Below, in pieces: positions 1-34,390 of a stretch of 37,251 nt of DNA. Numbering within the stretch: the first letter of the stretch is position 1; each line of letters starts with the position of its first letter. Where the stretch lies: positions 1-37,251 of the forward strand of contig PBIN01000008.1 in the NCBI GenBank assembly GCA_002720855.1. Reading direction: 5' to 3'. Under the pieces are notes generated by a model, which was not told the DNA's origin, ran no database searches, and saw only the letters and a program-made list of their open reading frames with translations. The DNA is from Rhodospirillaceae bacterium (GTDB lineage: Bacteria > Pseudomonadota > Alphaproteobacteria > MPNO01 > UBA2964). The position numbers were made by a program, and so were the translations under genes.

Positions 1-1
1 T

Positions 2-199
2 TCAATTCAGCCCTTTAGATCAGATCCGATGACCGTTCACCATTTAGGTTACCGTTGGGCTAGCGAACCGCCCAAAATGCGGGCGTTAAATCCTTCTTCA
101 TTAGAGTTACGCACCGTGGTGCATAAAGACAAAAACTGGGTTGATGTTGCTAAAGCAAAAAAGTGTGCGCAGCCCACATTCCTGAAAAAAGGAAACTGA
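2..199 (+). CDS. Possible C-terminal tail of a gene cut by the window edge
   Basis: The second plus-strand frame is open from the window edge to a TGA at 197-199, giving 65 residues with no start codon needed inside the window. The tail contains WASEPPKMRALN and ends in a Lys-rich KKCAQPTFLKKGN. I do not recognise a family. It lies upstream of, and in the same direction as, the polymerase-like gene at 354, so it could be the end of another element gene. An open frame this short can also occur by chance, so this is a candidate only. Confidence 0.3.
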   Translation, partial: SIQPFRSDPMTVHHLGYRWASEPPKMRALNPSSLELRTVVHKDKNWVDVAKAKKCAQPTFLKKGN

Positions 200-353
200 C
201 TAAAAGCTATTAGAGAGCCAATACTTCTCATATGATATGAATCATAAAAATAAAAATATTGTTATTTATCAATAAGATAATTCATTTTGAGCGTAGATAA
301 TATGGATATAAAAATAATGTAAGGGATGAATTTTTTTCATACTCTCGCTGGAT
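200..353 (+). promoter_or_regulatory. Very AT-rich leader before the polymerase-like gene
   Basis: This stretch is clearly more AT-rich than the coding DNA around it. It holds a small inverted repeat, ATGAT-ATGA-ATCAT (232-245), and several TATAAT-like words such as TAGATAAT near 293-300. It is the natural place for a promoter of the gene at 354. An AT-rich, repeat-bearing leader in front of a replication-type gene could also be an unwinding or iteron region, but no repeated iteron set is visible. The role is inferred from position and composition only. Confidence 0.35.
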
Positions 354-1613
354 ATGAGCTCAGATAAAGCATACCCGTTTGACGTGGCTTTAAGGCCATT
401 CAGCCCTCTTGCCAGAGAGATGTGTTCAATATTTATCCGAGATATCGAGAGAGCTGAAGCCACCCACCAGTTAAGAACTAGAAAGAGACGTGAAACCGAT
501 CAGGTGGTGTTTGAAGATATTGTCTCTTGCATCTTCGCCAACCTTTGCTTGTCTGCCATCGGCAATAGCAACCGTCCTATTCGTATTTCGCGTTCACACG
601 GCCGAATATCACCGAAGAGCCGGTATCATTCTTCTGTCTTAGGAAAAACCTTTCCAAAAATTATTGATGAATTAGCAAACCCACGGGTTGGCATACTCAC
701 CCAAAAAATCGCCGATCCCAGTGAGACATTTGCCACGCGCCAATCAACAATTAAGGAAACTCAGAAGTTTCGAAAGCTTGTGAGAGAAGCTGGCCTGAAA
801 GCGGGTGATTTCCGCCCAGAGGCTAGCTCGGAACTCATTCTTCTTAAGGCGAAGAAAACCAGACCTGACTCAACCGCCGGACTGGTCGAATATAAAAACA
901 CAGAAAAAACCAATCGCATGAGATCTGAAATGTTTGAGATCAATGATTGGTTGATGGGACTTGAAATCGAGCTGACTGGAAGCCTTGCAGGCTCACACAA
1001 CGTCAACAACAGACAACTCAAAAGACATTTCACAAGAGCAGACCATACTTTCAGCTCCGGTGGACGGCTTTTTGGCGGATTCTGGATGGGCTTGAGCAAG
1101 AAAGAGAGAGAACGGGGGCTCACCTTATCGGGGCAACCAGTCTGCACACTCGATATCTCGAACCTTAACCCAAGTCTTCTCTATGCCATTGCTGAAGTTG
1201 AGAGACCCGACGACGACGCCTATGCCCTCCCGGGCCTGGAACAGAGTCGCGACGGTGTAAAAAACATTTTTAATGCGATGACTTTCAGAGACACGCCACT
1301 AAAGCGCTTTCCATCGGGGACACGAACCAAGTTTCCACGACATGTTTCTATTCAAGATGTGCTCAGAGAGATCGAGCATAAACATCAAAAAATTTTCCAC
1401 CTTCTCAACTCTCAAATCGGCCACCAGCTCCAAAACAAAGAAAGCGATCTGATTGTTGATGTTCTGCTGAATGCGAAGGCCGAAGAAATCCCCGCCTTAC
1501 CTGTCCACGATGCGATCATCATCCCCGATGACAAGACAGAACATGGAATAAGAATCATTAAAAAATGCTTCTTCGCTCATACGGGTTATGAAGCAGAAAT
1601 AAAAAAAGAATGA
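354..1613 (+). CDS. Stand-alone family A / T7-type polymerase-like protein
   Basis: 419 residues. The C-terminal half carries what read as the three palm/finger motifs of the PolA/T7 RNA polymerase superfamily. Motif A is LDISNLNPSLLY (residues 266-277, metal-ligand candidate D267). The O-helix-like motif B is RDGVKNIFNAMTF (299-311, R299 and K303 spaced RxxxK). Motif C is ALPVHDAIIIP (381-391, H385-D386). LQNKESDLI (359-367) before motif C resembles the IQGxxAD segment of Pol I. By eye, the Pol I steric-gate Glu position (D+5) is Asn272 and the Tyr766/Tyr639 position is Phe311. The N-terminal half has no recognisable 5' nuclease or 3'-5' exonuclease motifs, and the protein is much shorter than Pol I. 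A primase, gap-filling or element-replication role is inference. The ATG at 354 has a weak Shine-Dalgarno; the ATG at residue 23, preceded by AGAGAG, is an alternative start. Confidence 0.65.
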   Translation: MSSDKAYPFDVALRPFSPLAREMCSIFIRDIERAEATHQLRTRKRRETDQVVFEDIVSCIFANLCLSAIGNSNRPIRISRSHGRISPKSRYHSSVLGKTFPKIIDELANPRVGILTQKIADPSETFATRQSTIKETQKFRKLVREAGLKAGDFRPEASSELILLKAKKTRPDSTAGLVEYKNTEKTNRMRSEMFEINDWLMGLEIELTGSLAGSHNVNNRQLKRHFTRADHTFSSGGRLFGGFWMGLSKKERERGLTLSGQPVCTLDISNLNPSLLYAIAEVERPDDDAYALPGLEQSRDGVKNIFNAMTFRDTPLKRFPSGTRTKFPRHVSIQDVLREIEHKHQKIFHLLNSQIGHQLQNKESDLIVDVLLNAKAEEIPALPVHDAIIIPDDKTEHGIRIIKKCFFAHTGYEAEIKKE

Positions 1614-1901
1614 TTAAAAATGTGTAGCAGCAGATGAACGATTATCATCGATAAAACAGATAGTTATTAGTCTATTAATCCCCTTCTATCTGTATCTATC
1701 TGCTTCCCCACTGTGGGACCCGTAAGCGATCCAATTACGCCCCCTGTCTGGTAAGAAAAAAAACCTAAACGCGTCGTGTCAGGAAGCCCCCCCAAACCCC
1801 TCTCAGAAGCCCTTAAAGGGGCCCTAGAGTCCAATCATTGATCTAGAGTGGGGGTTACCCGAGAAGCGGAGAGATGCAAACCCTACACGCGCTGAATCCA
1901 T
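1614..1901. other. Intergenic stretch between convergent element genes
   Basis: 288 bases separate the ends of the polymerase-like gene (plus) and the small secreted protein (minus). I see no convincing gene. There is a pyrimidine-rich repeat (TATCTGTATCTATCTG, about 1687-1702), a short inverted repeat CGTAA(1721-1725)/TTACG(1735-1739), C-runs near 1787-1800, and a weak hairpin GCCC(1809-1812)/GGGC(1819-1822) that could help termination from either side. None is strong enough to name. Confidence 0.4.
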
Positions 1902-2255
1902 TTATCGGTTATATGTTTTTTCTGCACAGCTTTCTTGGATCTGCCCGCGTCTATTATTAATGTGGGGCGGCAAAAAACCCGTCCTTCGAAGATACGCGTA
2001 GTCATCGGTCGTGAAGGAACCGAAATACGCCGCAGACAGACAATAACAATAGCTTCTGATCAAAGCTTCACTGAGCTGTGGTGCCTGAGCCTTCAACGTT
2101 GAGAGGCAACTGGGCAAATGTCCCTTCGCAAGCCCATTTTTGAGCGCTGGATCCAGAGGGCGGGCAACAACAGGATTGACGTAACCAACGCAGAAAATAA
2201 ACAGGATAAGCGTAAGTTTACGAAGCTTTATCTCTCTTAATACCTCACTCATCAT
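1902..2255 (-). CDS. Small secreted Cys-containing protein of the element
   Basis: 117 residues, no family recognised. After a basic N-terminus there is a hydrophobic run LTLILFIFCVGYV followed by VVARP, which looks like a Sec signal peptide with cleavage after VVA. The mature part has four cysteines, including a CYC pair (residues 70-72) and a Cys near the end, suggesting disulfides in the periplasm. Its start overlaps the stop of the upstream membrane-protein gene (2245) by about 11 bases, or 8 if the second ATG at 2252 is used, and no good Shine-Dalgarno is seen, so translational coupling is likely. With the integrase and the 2245-3273 gene it forms one minus-strand transcription unit. Function unknown; a periplasmic partner of the upstream membrane protein is a reasonable inference. 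Confidence 0.6.
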   Translation of the reverse strand: MMSEVLREIKLRKLTLILFIFCVGYVNPVVARPLDPALKNGLAKGHLPSCLSTLKAQAPQLSEALIRSYCYCLSAAYFGSFTTDDYAYLRRTGFLPPHINNRRGQIQESCAEKTYNR

Positions 2256-3273
2256 ACAGTAAGCGTTCTTGGGCGAGCCTACCCCCTTCGAAGAAGGCCA
2301 TCAGTAATCTAGACCGCCTATGAGGCGAGTAAACAAACTCCTCATAATTGATTCTGTTTGTCCCATTCATCTCATCCACGAAAGCCACCATTAAGAGTTT
2401 CTGCGGAATTTTGACGGTAAAGGCGAAGCCTGCCTTTACCCGGAATGTCTCTTCGAATTCGATAAAGGCCCTCTCAAAATTCTCGCCATATTCGGACGGG
2501 TCTATGTCCTCAACCCAAACTTTTTCAGCGAGCCGTTCGCATACTCCCTCTACCGAATTGTACCGCTCAATAGCTTCCGCTTCTCTCTGCCTAGCCTCCT
2601 GCTCAGAGCGTTCCTTTTCGCGGCTCTGCGCCTCCATCTCTTCCACGCGCAACGCGATATACCGGGCTTTGGCCTTGGTATCCTCTCCGTCACTTTCTGC
2701 GAGTGCTCTCGCCCATACGCCAATGACCTTCTTGTCATTTTCCAACTCAAGATAGGCTGCCTCATAGAATTCTTGTCGAGCGGCCTGCTCAGACGAACTA
2801 TCTTGCTCCGTCTTTCCTGTTGGGGCAGGCGCCTCAGGCGATGTGAACACCTCTCCGGAAGATGACGACGTTTCAGGCGGAGAGGGAGTTACAGATGCAG
2901 AGGCTGTAACCCTTGGTTGCGGCTGCTGAGTGCCAGCGTCAGTAGTTTTTTGATCCTTCTCGCGAATCTCTGCCAAAAATGGGTCGTTGTTCTTTATCTG
3001 GTATCGAAATGTGACCTTCACGCGATATGAGAAAAAAAGATAAAGGACTGGAGGGACAAGAAAAATCACAGACGGCAAAAGCGTTCCAATCGAAAAACCT
3101 ATTACCTGCCGACTCGGCAGTTTGATGGGTTCACTGGGCGCATCGAAAAAAGTACCGAGAGTTAGCAAGCAACCTATGCCAAACCAGATAATAGCGGGGA
3201 TCATCCATCCGCCGAATCCATATAGAGGATGATTGCGGACCTGCTCTTTTGTCAGTTGGACGTAGTCGGTCAT
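2245..3273 (-). CDS. Two-TM membrane protein with long coiled-coil cytoplasmic part
   Basis: 342 residues from the ATG at 3273, preceded by TAAGGG at good spacing; an upstream start at 3300 would run into the integrase end. The N-terminus (TKEQVRNHPLYGFGGWMIP) resembles the start of small DUF2569-like membrane proteins, a weak call. Two transmembrane segments follow (about residues 21-42 and 57-84). A Ser/Pro/Thr-rich linker (about 110-165) leads to a charged, Glu/Arg-rich coiled coil (about 200-240). The C-terminal domain contains FVDEMNGTNRINYEEF and is not recognised. The gene starts 10 bases after the integrase stop and overlaps the next small secreted protein gene, so the three look co-transcribed. 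Function unknown; accessory cargo of the element. Confidence 0.7.
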   Translation of the reverse strand: MTDYVQLTKEQVRNHPLYGFGGWMIPAIIWFGIGCLLTLGTFFDAPSEPIKLPSRQVIGFSIGTLLPSVIFLVPPVLYLFFSYRVKVTFRYQIKNNDPFLAEIREKDQKTTDAGTQQPQPRVTASASVTPSPPETSSSSGEVFTSPEAPAPTGKTEQDSSSEQAARQEFYEAAYLELENDKKVIGVWARALAESDGEDTKAKARYIALRVEEMEAQSREKERSEQEARQREAEAIERYNSVEGVCERLAEKVWVEDIDPSEYGENFERAFIEFEETFRVKAGFAFTVKIPQKLLMVAFVDEMNGTNRINYEEFVYSPHRRSRLLMAFFEGGRLAQERLLYDE

Positions 3274-3283
3274 AGAAAAACCC

Positions 3284-4261
3284 TTACCTAAGTCTATCAA
3301 CCAAGTCTTCCGCTCGGAGGTGAGTATACCTCTGAAGCATTCTTAAATCACGGTGACCGGTGATTGCGGCCACCTCCATCACATTCAGCCCTTTCTCGAA
3401 CAACCTACTGGTCGCCTCATGTCGGAGATCATGAAACCGAAGGCTCTCTATTCCAGCCCGCTGCACAGCCGCACGCCAGACACACCGAATACCGTATATC
3501 GTTGTCGGGAACACGCGCTCTGAGGATCCACCACGGATACGCTGCAATACTGACACTGCTGAGGTGCTTAGCGGAACCGACCTTCTTTCTCCATTTTTTG
3601 TTTCTTGGAGCTGAATCACGCGGCGAGAAAAATCTACATCACCCCACCTCAGGGAGAGCAACTCGCCACGGCGCATTGCAGTCTCAAGCGCAAAACGAAC
3701 AAGCGGCTCCACCCAGACATTACGGGACTCTGATAACGCGTTGAGTAGCTTTTCTTCCTCCCCGGTCTCCAATCGCCTCACACGGCCCTGTGGTTCAGGA
3801 GGCTTTCGAATGAGGCTCATTGGGTTGTCTATTTCAAAGCCCCATTCGCGCCGGGCGATCTCGATTACATGGTTTAGCAAAAGCATTTCTTTTCGCACGG
3901 TAGCCGTCGACACCTCTGCAAGCCTCATGTCTCGATATCGAGCGGCATCAACAGCCCTCAGGCGGTAAATGTTGATTGAGGATATTTTTTGTCTTTTTAT
4001 TTTTCCAAGTCTGAGCGCTTCGACAGATGCCCCCTTTTTGTGCGGCGTCACCATTTCCAGATATTTGTCTATCAGGTCACCAAGTGTCGTCGTTGCCGAC
4101 GGTCGCTCCGAGACGTCTTCACCGCGCTCTATCTTGCGCTCGATTTCATGAGCCCAGATCTCTGCATCTCGTTTGATCGAGAACGTCTTCGAAGTTGATG
4201 GGTAACCGGACCGTCGAACCTGAGCAGTCCAGCGTTTGTTTCGCTTGCGATAGGTCGCCAT
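3284..4261 (-). CDS. int: Tyrosine recombinase / integrase
   Basis: 325 residues from the ATG at 4261 (MATYRKRNKRW), preceded by GGAG at about 8 bases; this start matches the usual N-terminal beta region of phage-type integrases. An N-terminal SAM-like core-binding domain (about residues 55-160) is followed by the catalytic domain with the expected residues: Arg in ETAMRRGELLSLRW, Lys in ETKNGERR, HDLRHEA (HxxR), GH in AAITGHRD, and Tyr in MLQRYTHLR. It should catalyse site-specific integration and excision. The adjacent tRNA-Pro fragment (4330-4399) is the evident attachment site. The gene is transcribed away from the att site into the element and is followed closely by two cargo genes. The catalytic set appears complete, so it may be active. 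Confidence 0.95.
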   Translation of the reverse strand: MATYRKRNKRWTAQVRRSGYPSTSKTFSIKRDAEIWAHEIERKIERGEDVSERPSATTTLGDLIDKYLEMVTPHKKGASVEALRLGKIKRQKISSINIYRLRAVDAARYRDMRLAEVSTATVRKEMLLLNHVIEIARREWGFEIDNPMSLIRKPPEPQGRVRRLETGEEEKLLNALSESRNVWVEPLVRFALETAMRRGELLSLRWGDVDFSRRVIQLQETKNGERRSVPLSTSAVSVLQRIRGGSSERVFPTTIYGIRCVWRAAVQRAGIESLRFHDLRHEATSRLFEKGLNVMEVAAITGHRDLRMLQRYTHLRAEDLVDRLR

Positions 4262-4329
4262 AGCAGTCGCTCCGTGACAAGAGTGGTACAAGCGACTTCT
4301 GAGAATTCGAAAGAGTTAATTAAATCAAC

Positions 4330-4399
4330 AGCTCAGCCAGAGTAGAGCACTGTCTTCGGGAGGCAGGGGCCGGAGGTTCAAATCCTCTCACTCCGACCA
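4330..4399 (+). other. Attachment site: tRNA-Pro(CGG) 3' fragment
   Basis: The sequence folds as tRNA from the D-arm on. The D-stem is GCTC/GAGC and the anticodon stem CTGTC/GGCAG (4350-4354/4362-4366), with loop TTCGGGA and anticodon CGG (4357-4359). The T-stem is GGAGG/CCTCT around TTCAAAT. The acceptor 3' strand is CACTCCG (4389-4395), then A and an encoded CCA (4397-4399). The expected 5' acceptor strand (CGGAGTG) is missing: the bases before the D-stem are ATTAAATCAAC and cannot pair. It is therefore not a working tRNA gene but the duplicated 3' part left at one end of an integrated element. The T-rich stretch after CCA could be the original tRNA terminator region. Confidence 0.82.
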
Positions 4400-4564
4400 G
4401 TTTTCCTTTTATAATTTAATAAACTGTACTGTTATTCCGTGTTTTGGGTAACAATTGCACACAGCTCCAATAGTCCAGATTAAAGAAATTGCGGAGATAA
4501 CGTTAAAAAACCAATTGTGGAGTTCGACAAAAACCTTAGTTGGATACGAAGGCTGGAAGATATC

Positions 4565-5638: not shown

Positions 5639-6376
5639 TCAAAAATCGCTGAGCAGACGCCCGAATCCGTTCACACGATCGTCGATCCCGGTCTTTCGCA
5701 TTGACTCCCATGCTATCGCCTGAAGCGATGTCATTACGTTGATTCCGAATTCGTCCTCTAGCGGCTGAATCGCATCAATAACTGTCCAGTGTGGGCAGCT
5801 AAAATAAAGTGTATCCGCCCCCGGATTCGCTTTCATTGCCGCCCTGCCCCATTCAAGGGCCCGCTCCGGCGGCAACGTACCCAGGTTTATCAGGCTGGAC
5901 CCACCAGCAATAACACCCATTGGGTTAAGACCAAAAAATCCCCTGATATGGCGCTCATGCCGAGCGCTCTGATCTTCCGTGAATGGATGGACAATACAGA
6001 CATTCTGGGAACCGAGCGCTGCAAATGCATGAACCTGGGCAAGCGCCGAACACGACACTTTAACACCGATTTCGCGCTCCAGACTTTCCATCAATGAATC
6101 AACTGTGTCATCGCCCTTTGAAACATTGATCGGCAGACCGCCCAGCAAAACGAGGTCTGCGCCCGCTTGTGCCATTGTATGGGCAGCCTCAATTGATATC
6201 TGATAGCATTTTTTAACATCGTCAGGCGACCTTTCACCCAATGGCAGGGTTATCATCATCAGCGACACGCCATCGGGGACAACCCGATACCAATCGATTG
6301 GATAAACTTCGGTGGTGACGGCGGCGACGGTGTAGCCGATGCGCGCCCGGTGGCCGCGGATTTTCCTACCATCCAT
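5639..6376 (-). CDS. Arylmalonate decarboxylase / maleate isomerase family protein
   Basis: 245 residues from the ATG at 6376, which has GGAGA upstream; the longer frame to 6448 lacks that signal. The fold family (Asp/Glu racemase superfamily, AMDase/maleate cis-trans isomerase branch) is shown by the N-terminal ARIGYTVAAV segment, GADLVLLGGLPIN in the middle, and LYFSCPHWTVIDAI followed by FGINVMTSLQAIAW. The second-half catalytic Cys (SCPHW, residue 194) is present. At the first-half site, where racemases and maleate isomerases have Cys, there is GGLP. A Gly/Cys arrangement is the one known for AMDase, which decarboxylates malonates, so a decarboxylase-type or other one-Cys chemistry is more likely than isomerisation. 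The substrate is unknown. It is followed on the same strand by no close gene; the cupin gene lies about 170 bases upstream. Confidence 0.75.
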   Translation of the reverse strand: MDGRKIRGHRARIGYTVAAVTTEVYPIDWYRVVPDGVSLMMITLPLGERSPDDVKKCYQISIEAAHTMAQAGADLVLLGGLPINVSKGDDTVDSLMESLEREIGVKVSCSALAQVHAFAALGSQNVCIVHPFTEDQSARHERHIRGFFGLNPMGVIAGGSSLINLGTLPPERALEWGRAAMKANPGADTLYFSCPHWTVIDAIQPLEDEFGINVMTSLQAIAWESMRKTGIDDRVNGFGRLLSDF

Positions 6377-24815: not shown

Positions 24816-26120
24816 ATGCCCTGGCTCTGCCGCGATTGCTTTGAAACAGGACCATCAGAAGACGGTGTTACAGATTTGTGCCCCGATTGCGGATCTGCGC
24901 GCGTCATTTCGCATAAAGAACTAAATACCCTTTCGATCGCCCATATCGATTGCGATGCCTTCTATGCAACAGTCGAAATGCGTGACGACCCTTCCCTAAA
25001 AGGTAAACCGGTTCTCGTTGGCGGCAAGGGAGGACGGGGTGTAATTATGGCTGCCAGTTACGAAGCGCGGAAATTCGGCTGCCGTTCGGCGATGCCGATG
25101 TTTAAGGCGCGCAAACTATGTCCCCAGGCAATTATCGTTCGACCCAACATGGCCAAATATTCAGTCGTTGGAAGGGAAGTGCGCAAGCTGATGCATGACA
25201 CGACTCCCCTGGTTGAGCCAATCTCCATTGACGAAGCATTTCTCGACCTTTCAGGAACCGAAAAACTTCATGGAGGAGCGCCTGCCCATACCCTTGCCCG
25301 CTTGGCCGATAGAGTGGAAAACGAGGTCGGGATTACCGTTACGGTCGGGCTTAGCCACAACAAGTTTCTCGCAAAAATCGCCTCCGATCTCGACAAACCT
25401 CGTGGATTTTCTGTTGTCGGCCGGTCAGAAACATTGGGTTTTCTGGATACCTTACCGGTATCCAAGCTGTGGGGTGTTGGCAAAGCGCTACAACGAAAAC
25501 TTCATGCTGACGGATTTCACGAGATCGGTAGCCTTCGCGCCTGTTCAGAAGAATTCCTTGTAGAACGATACGGCTCAATCGGCTCACGGCTTTCTCGTTT
25601 CTCCTATGGCAATGACAATCGCCGCGTAGACCCGAAAGGCAATCGCAAGAGTATCTCTTCGGAGTCTACGTTTTTTAACGATATTCGTTCTGCCGATGAA
25701 TTGATCAAACGCCTATGGCCGCTATCGGAAAAAGTGGCGGCGCGGGCGAAAGCAGCGGAATTATCGGGACGCGTTATCACCGTCAAATTTAAAACCGATC
25801 GCTTCCTGATCCGCACCCGCAGAAGAACGCTCACCGACCCGACACAACTCGCTGAGGTGATCTGGCGAACAGGCGCCGATCTCGTCAAGAAAGAGGCGCG
25901 CGGCACAGCCTATCGGCTCATCGGCATTGGAATTAGTGACTTTTCGCCCGCAGATCACGCTGATCCTCCGGATTTAGGAAATCCTGACGGTGAACGGATT
26001 AAGGTCGTAGAACAAACAATAGACAATGTTCGGGCACGATTTGGCACCGACGCTATAAAAAAGGGACGCGGGCTTAAACCAGAAAAAAATGACAGGACGA
26101 GTCGCCCGCCAGCACGCTAG
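24816..26120 (+). CDS. dinB: DNA polymerase IV (Y-family) with N-terminal zinc ribbon
   Basis: 434 residues. An N-terminal extension of about 35 residues carries CRDC and CPDC (C5, C8, C22, C25), a likely zinc ribbon before the polymerase. The Y-family core is complete: IAHIDCDAFYATVEMRDDP (D45, D47), AASYEARKFGCRSAMPMFKA, VEPISIDEAFLDLSGTEKL (catalytic acidic pair), VGLSHNKFLAKIASDLDKPR and LWGVGKALQRKL (HhH). It performs error-prone lesion bypass. No clear C-terminal clamp-binding QLxLF-type motif is seen; the tail is basic and Pro-rich. It follows the amidohydrolase gene by 43 bases. No LexA box was identified in that gap, and the start has a weak Shine-Dalgarno. Confidence 0.95.
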   Translation: MPWLCRDCFETGPSEDGVTDLCPDCGSARVISHKELNTLSIAHIDCDAFYATVEMRDDPSLKGKPVLVGGKGGRGVIMAASYEARKFGCRSAMPMFKARKLCPQAIIVRPNMAKYSVVGREVRKLMHDTTPLVEPISIDEAFLDLSGTEKLHGGAPAHTLARLADRVENEVGITVTVGLSHNKFLAKIASDLDKPRGFSVVGRSETLGFLDTLPVSKLWGVGKALQRKLHADGFHEIGSLRACSEEFLVERYGSIGSRLSRFSYGNDNRRVDPKGNRKSISSESTFFNDIRSADELIKRLWPLSEKVAARAKAAELSGRVITVKFKTDRFLIRTRRRTLTDPTQLAEVIWRTGADLVKKEARGTAYRLIGIGISDFSPADHADPPDLGNPDGERIKVVEQTIDNVRARFGTDAIKKGRGLKPEKNDRTSRPPAR

Positions 26121-32005: not shown

Positions 32006-34390
32006 TTATGACTCTCCCCTTGCACCGGCGCGGCGGCGGACGAGTTGAGTCAAAACGACCAGGCCCAACGCCACCAATGCCAAAGGATATATCCATTCTT
32101 TTGCTGGTCTTCCGAGTTGTTCAACATCGATACTGGTCACAAAGTCTTCATATGGACGGATGCCCGCTTTCTCAGCCACGCTATTGAACGCTACATTCGT
32201 AACCGGATAGCGACCATCTTTTAAAGCACCCAGTTCCAGCCCGTACGGTTTTAGGCCAGGCTTATCTGCAGCAGAAATTCTGAAGAGTTTGAAACGGTCA
32301 CCATAATTCGTTTCGCGAACGACATGCAGCCGGAAGGCAAGGCCTTTTTCGATTGTCAAATCGCCTTTCGCAGCCCTTTCAATATCAGCGGTAGCAAAAG
32401 CGGGGGAAAACCGGTCGAGGATAAAGTCGGGGCGGAAGAACCCAACCATCGCCACGATGAGTAAAATGGATTCAAACCACTTAACTTTAACGAACATCCA
32501 TTGCTGGGTTAGCGAGCTAAAACACAAGATTGCGAGTAGCGAGACGCAAAAGACAGTGATCCCATGCCAAACACTCGTAACACCGATAAGCAGAAGCTCT
32601 GTATTGAAGATAAAGACGAATGGAAGTACCGCCGTGCGAATATCATACAGAAAACTCTGGACACCTGTTTTTAACGGGTCGGCGCGCGAAATCGCGGAAG
32701 CTGCAAAAGCTGCCAAACATACGGGCGGCGTTGAATCTGCCAGCAATCCGAAATAGAAAACAAACAGATGAACCGCGATCAATGGCAGGACCAGTCCGGC
32801 GGCATTTCCGAGCTCCACCAGCACGCCCGCTAGCAATGAAGCAACAACGAGATAGTTTGCGGTAGTAGGCAGCCCCATCCCGAGGACGATGCACAATACC
32901 GCCGTTAAAAGGAGCAACACATACACGTTGCCACCCGACAATGCTTCAACAACACCAACCATGGCGTTGTTCAGTCCCGTCGATGAAACCGCACCGACGA
33001 TTATGCCCGCCGCAGCAACGGCAACAGCAATGCCGATCATATTGCGGGCGCCGGCGATTAATCCGTCGCGAATGTCAGCGATCCCGTTATAGAAACTCTG
33101 AAGCGCCGGAACTCCTTGATAGCGCCCCTCGATGACCCGTTGTCCGATTATGATTACCATCATCACAACAACGGAATAAAACACGGCACTACCGGCGGTC
33201 CAGCGGGCCACCATAAGGAGATACACCAACACAATGATCGGAACCAGGAAATGAATACCCTGTCTAAAGGTTGCCCAAAGGATGGGGACTTCAGATTTAT
33301 CCAGCCCTTTGAGACCGAGCTTCAGTGCCTCGAGATGCGAGATATAAAGGAGCCCGAGATAGCTGATGACCGCTGGAATAAATGCAGCGACCACGACATC
33401 GAAGTAAGGAATGCCAATTGTCTCGGCGATAATAAAAGCGGCAGCGCCCATAATTGGCGGCATAATTTGACCGTTTGTCGAAGCCGCAACTTCGATTGCG
33501 CCCGCTTTCACAGCCGGAATGCCGATCTTTTGCATAACGGGGATCGTGAATGTCCCGGTTGTCACGACATTTGCGATCGAGGACCCCGATATCGCCCCGT
33601 TCATACCCGATGCAAGAATTGCAGCTTTTGCTGGCCCGCCGCGATATCTGCCAACCATCGCAAAGGCGAGGTCCAGAAAATATTTCCCTGCACCCGCTTT
33701 TTCCAGCAAAGCCCCAAACAGGACAAACAAAAAGACAAAGCTGACGGAAACATCGATTGGTATTCCGAAGATTGCCTCTCCTGTGAGCCATTGATACCCG
33801 ATCAACCGTTCCAAAGAGACGCCCTTATGGGAAATGATATCCGGCATCGACTGACCGAATATCGAAAATAAAAGGAAAATGGCGCAGATGATAACCAGCG
33901 GCAAACCAATGGCGCGGCGTGTCGCCTCCAGCAAAAGAAGGATTCCGCAGCCACCAATAATCGCCTCCACCGGCACCTGCATTCCCCAGATTTCTTCTTT
34001 CAGTAGTACACCAACACGTTTGGTGATCCCTTCTTGCGCAATAAGGGGATAGAGCGCACAGAACGCGGCAACGACCCCGAGAACCATGTCGGAAACAGGA
34101 ATGCCGGGTTTCGTCCGGCGTCTTGATCCTGGAAAAACAATAAAGCAAAGGAGCAATGCAAATGCGAGATGCGCTGCGCGCGCAGGAACGTCGACGATGA
34201 TCCCAAAATTTATATGGAAGGGAAAAGGTGACGCGATCCAAAGTTGAAATAAAGACCAAATGAGCGTGAGGGCGACAATCAACTTAAGCCCGGTCGATCC
34301 CGGGTCCCGGCCGGTACTTTCAAATCGTTCCAGGAGTTCTTCAGCACTCTCTGTTTGTTCGACCTGCTCGGATCCGTTTGTATCAGCCAT
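32006..34390 (-). CDS. TAXI-type fused TRAP transporter permease (DctQM fusion)
   Basis: 794 residues from the ATG at 34390, which has GGGGG 7 bases upstream; the ATG at 34396 sits directly on that site. Long hydrophobic protein fusing the small and large TRAP permease parts. Segments include LPLVIICAIFLLFSIFGQSM, GALLEKAGAGKYFLDLAFAM, NGAISGSSIANVVTTGTFTI, EVAASTNGQIMPPIMGAAAF, VLGMGLPTTANYLVVASLLA and LLADSTPPVCLAAFAASAIS, all typical of the 4TM/12TM fusion. The C-terminal soluble region after about residue 640 is the DUF3394-like tail. It moves an organic acid with Na+ or H+. It works with the TAXI binding protein 74 bases upstream. Confidence 0.95.
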   Translation of the reverse strand: MADTNGSEQVEQTESAEELLERFESTGRDPGSTGLKLIVALTLIWSLFQLWIASPFPFHINFGIIVDVPARAAHLAFALLLCFIVFPGSRRRTKPGIPVSDMVLGVVAAFCALYPLIAQEGITKRVGVLLKEEIWGMQVPVEAIIGGCGILLLLEATRRAIGLPLVIICAIFLLFSIFGQSMPDIISHKGVSLERLIGYQWLTGEAIFGIPIDVSVSFVFLFVLFGALLEKAGAGKYFLDLAFAMVGRYRGGPAKAAILASGMNGAISGSSIANVVTTGTFTIPVMQKIGIPAVKAGAIEVAASTNGQIMPPIMGAAAFIIAETIGIPYFDVVVAAFIPAVISYLGLLYISHLEALKLGLKGLDKSEVPILWATFRQGIHFLVPIIVLVYLLMVARWTAGSAVFYSVVVMMVIIIGQRVIEGRYQGVPALQSFYNGIADIRDGLIAGARNMIGIAVAVAAAGIIVGAVSSTGLNNAMVGVVEALSGGNVYVLLLLTAVLCIVLGMGLPTTANYLVVASLLAGVLVELGNAAGLVLPLIAVHLFVFYFGLLADSTPPVCLAAFAASAISRADPLKTGVQSFLYDIRTAVLPFVFIFNTELLLIGVTSVWHGITVFCVSLLAILCFSSLTQQWMFVKVKWFESILLIVAMVGFFRPDFILDRFSPAFATADIERAAKGDLTIEKGLAFRLHVVRETNYGDRFKLFRISAADKPGLKPYGLELGALKDGRYPVTNVAFNSVAEKAGIRPYEDFVTSIDVEQLGRPAKEWIYPLALVALGLVVLTQLVRRRAGARGES

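Follow-up and report, generated by a model that had tools for sequence, protein, structure and literature searches.

Genes and features of the locus

The window analysed here, 37,251 nucleotides from a Rhodospirillaceae bacterium (assembly GCA_002720855.1, contig PBIN01000008.1), is the whole of contig C8 of that assembly. Its left end carries a polymerase-like gene, an integrase gene and a repeat of part of a tRNA gene, with the features given below.

1..199, forward strand: truncated upstream ORF of the element, represented by its 3' end because the contig starts within it; repeated on contig C3 (blastn matches of 147 bp at 96.6% and 126 bp at 95.2%)
354..1613, forward strand: TV-Pol protein P0001, 419 aa
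354..830, forward strand: N-terminal domain of P0001, residues 1-159, winged-helix-like, putatively DNA-binding
1059..1067, forward strand: GGR beta-hairpin motif, G236-R238, counterpart of TGR in PolA
1152..1169, forward strand: motif A, with catalytic D267 and sugar-gate position N272 (Glu in Pol I)
1248..1286, forward strand: O-helix motif B, with R299, K303 and F311 (the Tyr766/Tyr639 position)
1506..1511, forward strand: motif C, H385-D386
1902..2255, reverse strand: small protein of the element cargo, its N-terminus hydrophobic by eye; no Pfam match above threshold
2245..3300, reverse strand: putative membrane protein, judged by eye, without a Pfam match above threshold
3284..4291, reverse strand: tyrosine recombinase (integrase) beside the right attachment site; Pfam Phage_integrase E 1.3e-33
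4342..4403, forward strand: right attachment site, identical over 62 bp (the longest exact match) to the 3' portion of the tRNA-Pro(CGG) gene on C3

The P0001 ORF (354-1613, forward strand) is intact and reads through its 419 codons without an internal stop. A sequence-only reading of this DNA had placed the gene on an integrative element, and the tyrosine integrase, the tRNA-Pro gene and the 62-bp att repeat bear this out. The tRNA-Pro(CGG) gene lies on contig C3 (L045 16409-16485). At the very end of C3, a protein search of the assembly recovered the first 102 codons of a second polymerase copy, 75% identical to the first; the rest of this copy was found nowhere in the assembly. Exactly where C3 stops, a stretch of 181 bp is 92.8% identical between the copies, and the assembly therefore probably broke on a repeat. 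The sequence-only reading had missed this second copy. An element-free arrangement was present in 2 of the 9 other-genome loci of the host's family that were compared (L216 and L218; 11 were fetched), where a relative of window gene 5641-6166 lies slightly less than 1 kb beyond the same tRNA-Pro. Together with the att repeat and the tRNA-Pro gene, these loci indicate that the element most likely spans from C3 across a gap to the window start and ends at position 4403.

Element cargo comprises the polymerase gene, at least part of its second copy, the integrase, small exported or membrane-type proteins and repeated small genes. One segment of the 2245..3300 protein is related to an ORF at the C3 element end (blastp 35% over 71 aa, E 1e-10, composition correction off). 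Proteins of Adhesin_E and DUF2914 type are also among the cargo (window 1-4403, L045:16486-20000). No helicase was recognized by Pfam in the six element ORFs scanned, a part of the element being missing from the assembly, and profiles detected neither resolvase-like nor partner-like genes in the window and the C3 end. The sole integrase-profile match (reverse-strand 32937-33965, equal to 3287-4315) is the window integrase itself. The host carries its own PolA elsewhere. Outside the element, amid metabolic and TRAP transporter genes, the window holds a Y-family (impB/mucB) DNA polymerase gene at 24816-26120.

Membership of P0001 in a published family

By its sequence characters, P0001 is a member of TV-Pol, a published, little-studied polymerase family carried by mobile elements (PMC2579912). 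Iyer, Abhiman and Aravind (2008) described TV-Pol and predicted it to act as a primase plus polymerase on such elements; P0001 is thus not the unrecognized "hypothetical" that the sequence-only reading had suggested. As published, the family has a minimal Pol A domain with a hairpin Arg, an Asp and RxxxK in the fingers and two active-site Asp, and never occurs with nucleases. A subset has an extra N-terminal domain, the elements encode a resolvase, integrase or transposase, and the context in print is linked to helicases and replication, with a Loktanella vestfoldensis TV-Pol gene in a neighbourhood that has a D5-like helicase (PMC2579912).

Among PHROGs, P0001 falls in phrog_4756 (unknown function; E 9e-24), which is matched by 96/96 members of alignment A4. 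The phrog profile placed the family in 23/289 genomes of the host's class, a tally that includes the host and a few weak matches, among them the 937-aa frame of G239 (E 2e-4), probably an ordinary PolA. With P0001 as the query, 23/385 genomes of the class were positive, host included. Members occurred in 4/27 genomes of the host's order, and in 6 Vibrio phage records, 3 alphaproteobacterial plasmid records and 29 viral contigs. A single-protein scan of viral contigs with P0001 gave 5 pattern matches, none of them a relative. Genome contigs contained 339 relatives, of which the best 80 by similarity to P0001 were analysed.

Conserved catalytic residues

P0001 was aligned with other family ORFs of at least 320 aa, yielding 143 rows from 155 distinct family ORFs after 12 shorter fragments were dropped; these rows are related rather than independent, and counts drawn from them depend on sampling. 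D267 is invariant (143/143 rows). R238 is present in 140/143, D288 in 136/143, R299 in 137/143 and K303 in 138/143 rows, and in rows with a letter at motif C, position 385 is His in 132/137 and position 386 Asp in 136/137. The full set of R238, D267, R299, K303, H385 and D386 occurs in P0001 and in 130/143 rows; of the 13 rows lacking it, 6 end before motif C, 3 belong to an altered branch described below and 4 have single changes or gaps. As aligned, the conserved residues of P0001 are the Pol A motifs, namely the hairpin Arg, the motif A Asp, the O-helix Arg and Lys, and the motif C His-Asp. The sequence-only reading had named D267, R299/K303 and an HD pair at 385-386, and had proposed conservation of the acidic residues in homologs as a check. 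These residues lie at the positions it gave, and both Asp residues are conserved.

When the family profile was aligned locally with that of 30 PolA sequences, the match (E 3.6e-4, HH probability 37%) spanned 70 columns around motif A. Within this stretch, limited to motif A and the hairpin, the family GGRL falls on TGRL and motif A on DYSQIELR in exact register, with D267 aligned to the motif A Asp and N272 to a Glu present in 30/30 PolA. Global hhalign of the family versus PolA returned nothing (probability 0.2). Motifs B and C lie outside the local match, and their positions were therefore taken from the structure and from the conserved anchor residues R, K and HD. F311 is K303+8, positioned from the RxxxK anchor (PolA: RRSAKAINFGLIYG). 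Pfam yielded no match to the 419 aa of P0001 at E up to 1, and so neither DNA_pol_A (PF00476) nor a nuclease domain; no NCBIfam model matched the protein, and comparison with PDB sequences gave a chance-level match only (E 1.7).

Predicted fold of P0001

P0001 almost certainly adopts the TV-Pol polymerase fold. An AlphaFold2 model built from a 96-row alignment (pLDDT 94.1, pTM 0.91) matched 88 PDB chains by Foldseek at E up to 0.001, and the 50 best were all Pol A-type DNA polymerases, with Bst Pol I at E 1.5e-5. VIA-align scored yeast mitochondrial RNAP at Z 14.2 (rmsd 3.4, 245 aligned), apicoplast polymerase at Z 14.0 (rmsd 3.5, 234 aligned), Taq at Z 13.5 (rmsd 4.1, 244 aligned), T7 DNAP at Z 13.3 (rmsd 3.4, 228 aligned) and T7 RNAP at Z 13.0 (rmsd 3.4, 239 aligned), a spread of little over 1 across the five matches. 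Structural alignment to Pol I, T7 DNAP, T7 RNAP and mitochondrial RNAP covers mainly model residues 156-419. The model puts D267 on strand 261-268 and D386 where hairpin 382-391 turns, an arrangement shared with Pol A; the R238 hairpin has its strand at 236-241, with a single long helix (184-202) ahead of it. Since the sequence-profile link is short and of low HH probability, it is this fold match that carries the case for PolA kinship.

Foldseek against viral models returned mostly uncharacterized or unnamed phage proteins as its best matches (E down to 3e-21), together with one named DNA polymerase, and also the Zamilon virophage DNA replication protein V6BPG7 (E 5e-4). No archaeo-eukaryotic primase fold figures among the fold matches listed, which is no evidence either way. 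Some viral relatives are named DNA polymerase in UniProt, for example A0A4P8NBL2.

The sequence-only reading had described P0001 as a minimal PolA/T7-type palm and fingers without an exonuclease, to be checked by structure prediction and a fold search. A palm/fingers fold is indeed predicted, Pol I and T7 RNAP are both matched and no exonuclease was detected. P0001 nevertheless consists of more than these two parts: a conserved N-terminal domain of about 155 residues had been overlooked. Modelled alone, residues 1-160 gave pLDDT 90.3 and a helix-helix-strand-helix-helix-two-strand arrangement. Its best Foldseek match was of MarR type (E 0.2), and structural alignment scored highest with a putative DNA-binding protein (Z 5.6) and reached Z 5.5 with the N-terminal domain of T7 RNAP; none of these is a convincing fold match, the best scores lying at or below the level typical of the tools when there is no true match. 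The model is suggestive of a winged helix, from which we infer that the domain may bind DNA.

Absence of the sugar-gate glutamate

In DNA polymerase I the sugar gate is Glu710. The corresponding residue of P0001 is Asn272, and Glu occurs in 0/143 family rows as against 30/30 PolA. The retrieval patterns (the GGR region, with motif C added in the viral scan) excluded the gate position. Asn272 had been recognized from the sequence alone, as had Phe311 at the Tyr766/Tyr639 position; the first assignment holds in the PolA register, the second follows from the RxxxK anchor, and an altered gate is common to all 143 rows. Position 272 is His in 42 rows, Gly in 27, Ala in 17, Phe in 15, Asn in 12, Ser in 8, Gln in 7, Met in 6, Leu in 4, Thr in 3, Cys in 1 and Tyr in 1, and never Glu or Asp; by class, 68 of the 143 rows have a small residue, 42 His and 33 a bulky residue. 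It is the most variable column between 263 and 278, while D267 shows no variation. Residue 311 is Asn in 64 and Phe in 52 of the 143 rows. What is new here is the absence, across the 143 aligned rows, of the gate Glu. The steric gate is not treated in the text of the TV-Pol description (PMC2579912). The term "steric gate" is absent from PMC7581432, PMC10061031 and PMC11348598, although PMC7581432 does treat both residues in CCPol, a characterized TV-Pol considered below.

The two positions vary together. With the altered branch left out (140 rows), Asn311 accompanies 39 of the 42 His residues at 272, and Phe311 occurs in 34 of the 68 rows with a small residue. A FastTree tree of 137 rows, calculated with columns 272 and 311 removed, places 37 of 39 His/Asn rows on one side of 48 rows, together with all 3 rows from Vibrio phages and 19 of the 26 from viral contigs (viral rows counted from the drawing). 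On the other side (89 rows) are P0001, a total of 64 small-gate rows, including 34 of small/Phe type, and the relatives from genome contigs, which cluster with P0001 by construction because they were chosen for similarity to it. The deepest split is unsupported, and the association of gate type with tree side is therefore a tendency.

According to two reviews, a change of the steric gate alone brings about rNTP uptake by DNA polymerases, and rNTP-using variants derived from Taq carry E615G among several changes (PMC4215692; PMC4854868); T7 RNAP Y639F accepts 2'-modified sugars (PMC4854868). P0001 may thus be able to use ribonucleotides. His or bulky residues at 272 may still gate, perhaps in another manner.

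An altered branch in one bacterial order

An altered branch, with loci L226-L228 and L229-L257, is represented in the 143-row alignment by three divergent rows that lack a good part of the catalytic residues. One of these rows, used as a query, gave a single match in each of 29/32 genomes, representing 12/12 genera, of one small-genome order, of which three stretches have about 30% GC. None of the 29 retains the O-helix Lys or the motif C His. The hairpin Arg is present in 1/29 and the O-helix Arg in 3/29, while D267 is retained in 21/29 and D386 in 25/29, the alignment being uncertain there; conservation is strong in the N-terminal region. In 27/29 a gene for a cNMP-binding protein adjoins the altered TV-Pol, and in L257 the cNMP-binding domain is in the same frame (Pfam was checked for 3). 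Genes resembling folD and argG (by eye) lie near the altered TV-Pol in 3 loci. Judged by its residues, the branch is probably catalytically inactive, and it looks like a TV-Pol exapted as a regulator.

Genomic neighbourhoods of relatives

Neighbours of the best 80 of the 339 genome relatives, rather than of the His/Asn side, were grouped by single-linkage BLAST of stop-to-stop frames within 6 kb, with one representative of each group compared with Pfam. Recombinases were the commonest conserved neighbours: a resolvase-type cluster lies near 47 of these loci, a tyrosine-integrase cluster near 47, and one or the other near 65. Relatives of DUF5906, which we take to mark a D5/SF3-like helicase, are near 3 of the 80. 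One of the genome relatives (L166, E 9e-59) belongs to Yoonia (Loktanella) vestfoldensis SKA53, and the next gene has a DUF5906 domain.

At 38 of the 80 loci (L103-L182), a conserved neighbour, as at L103:7000-7959, is adjacent to or overlaps the polymerase frame. Its frames are mostly of 210-300 residues with a Cys/His zinc-finger-like motif (by eye), and the one representative scanned had no Pfam match; it is a candidate partner of the polymerase. Rhodobacteraceae bacterium HTCC2083 has two 5228-bp TV-Pol stretches (L125 and L126), 99.87% identical and far apart on one scaffold, probably reflecting recent movement. The Paracoccus versutus plasmid pBEN carries a TV-Pol gene with an N-terminal fragment of a second one upstream (L011:779-1402, L011:5371-7236), as if duplicated and truncated.

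Proposed role of P0001 and alternatives

We consider P0001 likely to be a replication or priming enzyme of its element. Somewhat less firmly, though still as the reading we favour, we propose that it is a TV-Pol that primes and copies its tRNA-Pro-inserted element, with an open gate that admits ribonucleotides. The integrase would excise the element from the tRNA-Pro gene, and the N-terminal domain, probably DNA-binding, would guide the enzyme to the excised or excising element. The palm would then prime and extend DNA on the element, replacing a separate primase, with N272 and F311 allowing it to start with abundant ribonucleotides and to continue with deoxyribonucleotides. That real ribonucleotide use would be seen in vitro we rate a little below an even chance. 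More tentatively, the TV-Pol side to which P0001 belongs might consist of natural dual-sugar primase-polymerases, in which mostly small residues at 272, often with Phe at 311, would let a single enzyme of about 400 residues make a primer containing ribonucleotides and extend it with deoxyribonucleotides, so that the element is replicated without a primase, proofreading polymerase or partner. The His/Asn pair of the phage-rich side would then be a second solution to the same problem, and CCPol an exception.

The strongest rival, which we hold to be a real if lesser possibility, is a DNA-only primase/polymerase like CCPol that both primes and extends with dNTPs, the gate being Asn272 or a residue close to it. 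Other polymerase families gate with Tyr or Phe, and position 272 is His in 42 and Phe in 15 of the 143 rows. CCPol-MP of SCC elements (SCCmec) is a characterized TV-Pol for which primer synthesis has been shown (PMC7581432, PMC10061031), and it reportedly prefers dNTPs and primes with dNTPs only (PMC7581432); priming therefore needs no open gate. CCPol keeps the equivalents of E710 and F762 (PMC7581432), and because it keeps Glu, it does not predict sugar choice in proteins without one; the Glu is gone in all 143 rows of the alignment, 68 of which have a small residue instead. Even CCPol incorporated NTPs as well as dNTPs in one assay in which a primer was supplied (PMC7581432).

A single-subunit RNA polymerase that transcribes the element genes, as T7 RNAP does, is improbable. 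The fold scores of yeast mitochondrial and T7 RNAP are about equal to those of Pol I, the N-terminal domain has a weak structural match in its T7 RNAP counterpart, and PHROG RNA polymerases gave weak matches, one member each, at E 0.005-0.006. A gate can also be Gly, as in T7 RNAP, where G542 is presumably the matching position. Against this, hhalign with a single T7 RNAP sequence reached E 0.13 in an unrelated segment, compared with E 3.6e-4 in register for the 30 PolA, the two tests being unequal; promoter-recognition loops like those of T7 RNAP do not seem to be present in the 419 aa; and the printed family context is one of helicases and replication (PMC2579912).

It is less probable still that P0001 is a catalytically inactive DNA-binding relic or regulator. 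The motif-poor branch, kept as a chromosomal gene in 29/32 genomes of one order, offers a precedent, yet all six catalytic residues checked are present in P0001 itself. Least probable, and to our mind barely credible, is a cargo-encoded polymerase that defends against phages: defence genes are common on integrative elements and one relative adjoins a DNA methyltransferase on a plasmid, but the best PADLOC match among six proteins scanned (E 0.017) was rejected and the commonest neighbours of the 80 relatives are recombinases.

Comparison with known systems

Relative to T7-like and mitochondrial single-subunit RNAPs, P0001 has the same palm/fingers fold (Z 13-14), but is about half as long and has no profile match to T7 RNAP. 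With DNA polymerase I (PF00476) it shares both fold (Z about 13 and the Bst Pol I match) and catalytic motifs; it differs in its length of 419 aa, in having no Pfam DNA_pol_A match and no detected exonuclease, and in the missing gate Glu. Its likeness to TV-Pol as published (PMC2579912) embraces the palm and fingers, the hairpin Arg (R238), D288, RxxxK, the two Asp, the lack of a nuclease, the N-terminal domain, the mobile-element context and the presence of alphaproteobacterial members, including that of Loktanella vestfoldensis. The element of P0001 departs from the printed description in having two polymerase copies, one of them partial, and no helicase among the ORFs scanned.

Like P0001, CCPol-MP and the PolA-SSB primases have a catalytic domain of Pol A type and are encoded on mobile elements next to a site-specific recombinase. 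CCPol reportedly retains Glu710 and has an OB-fold partner, in contrast to P0001 with its Asn272 and no such partner recognized. The characterized CCPol thus keeps the Pol I sugar gate, whereas P0001 and 142 other rows do not, and the missing Glu leads to a testable prediction, that this part of TV-Pol tolerates or uses ribonucleotides. If true, these proteins would show one small palm both starting and extending a chain, and would represent natural open-gate polymerases.
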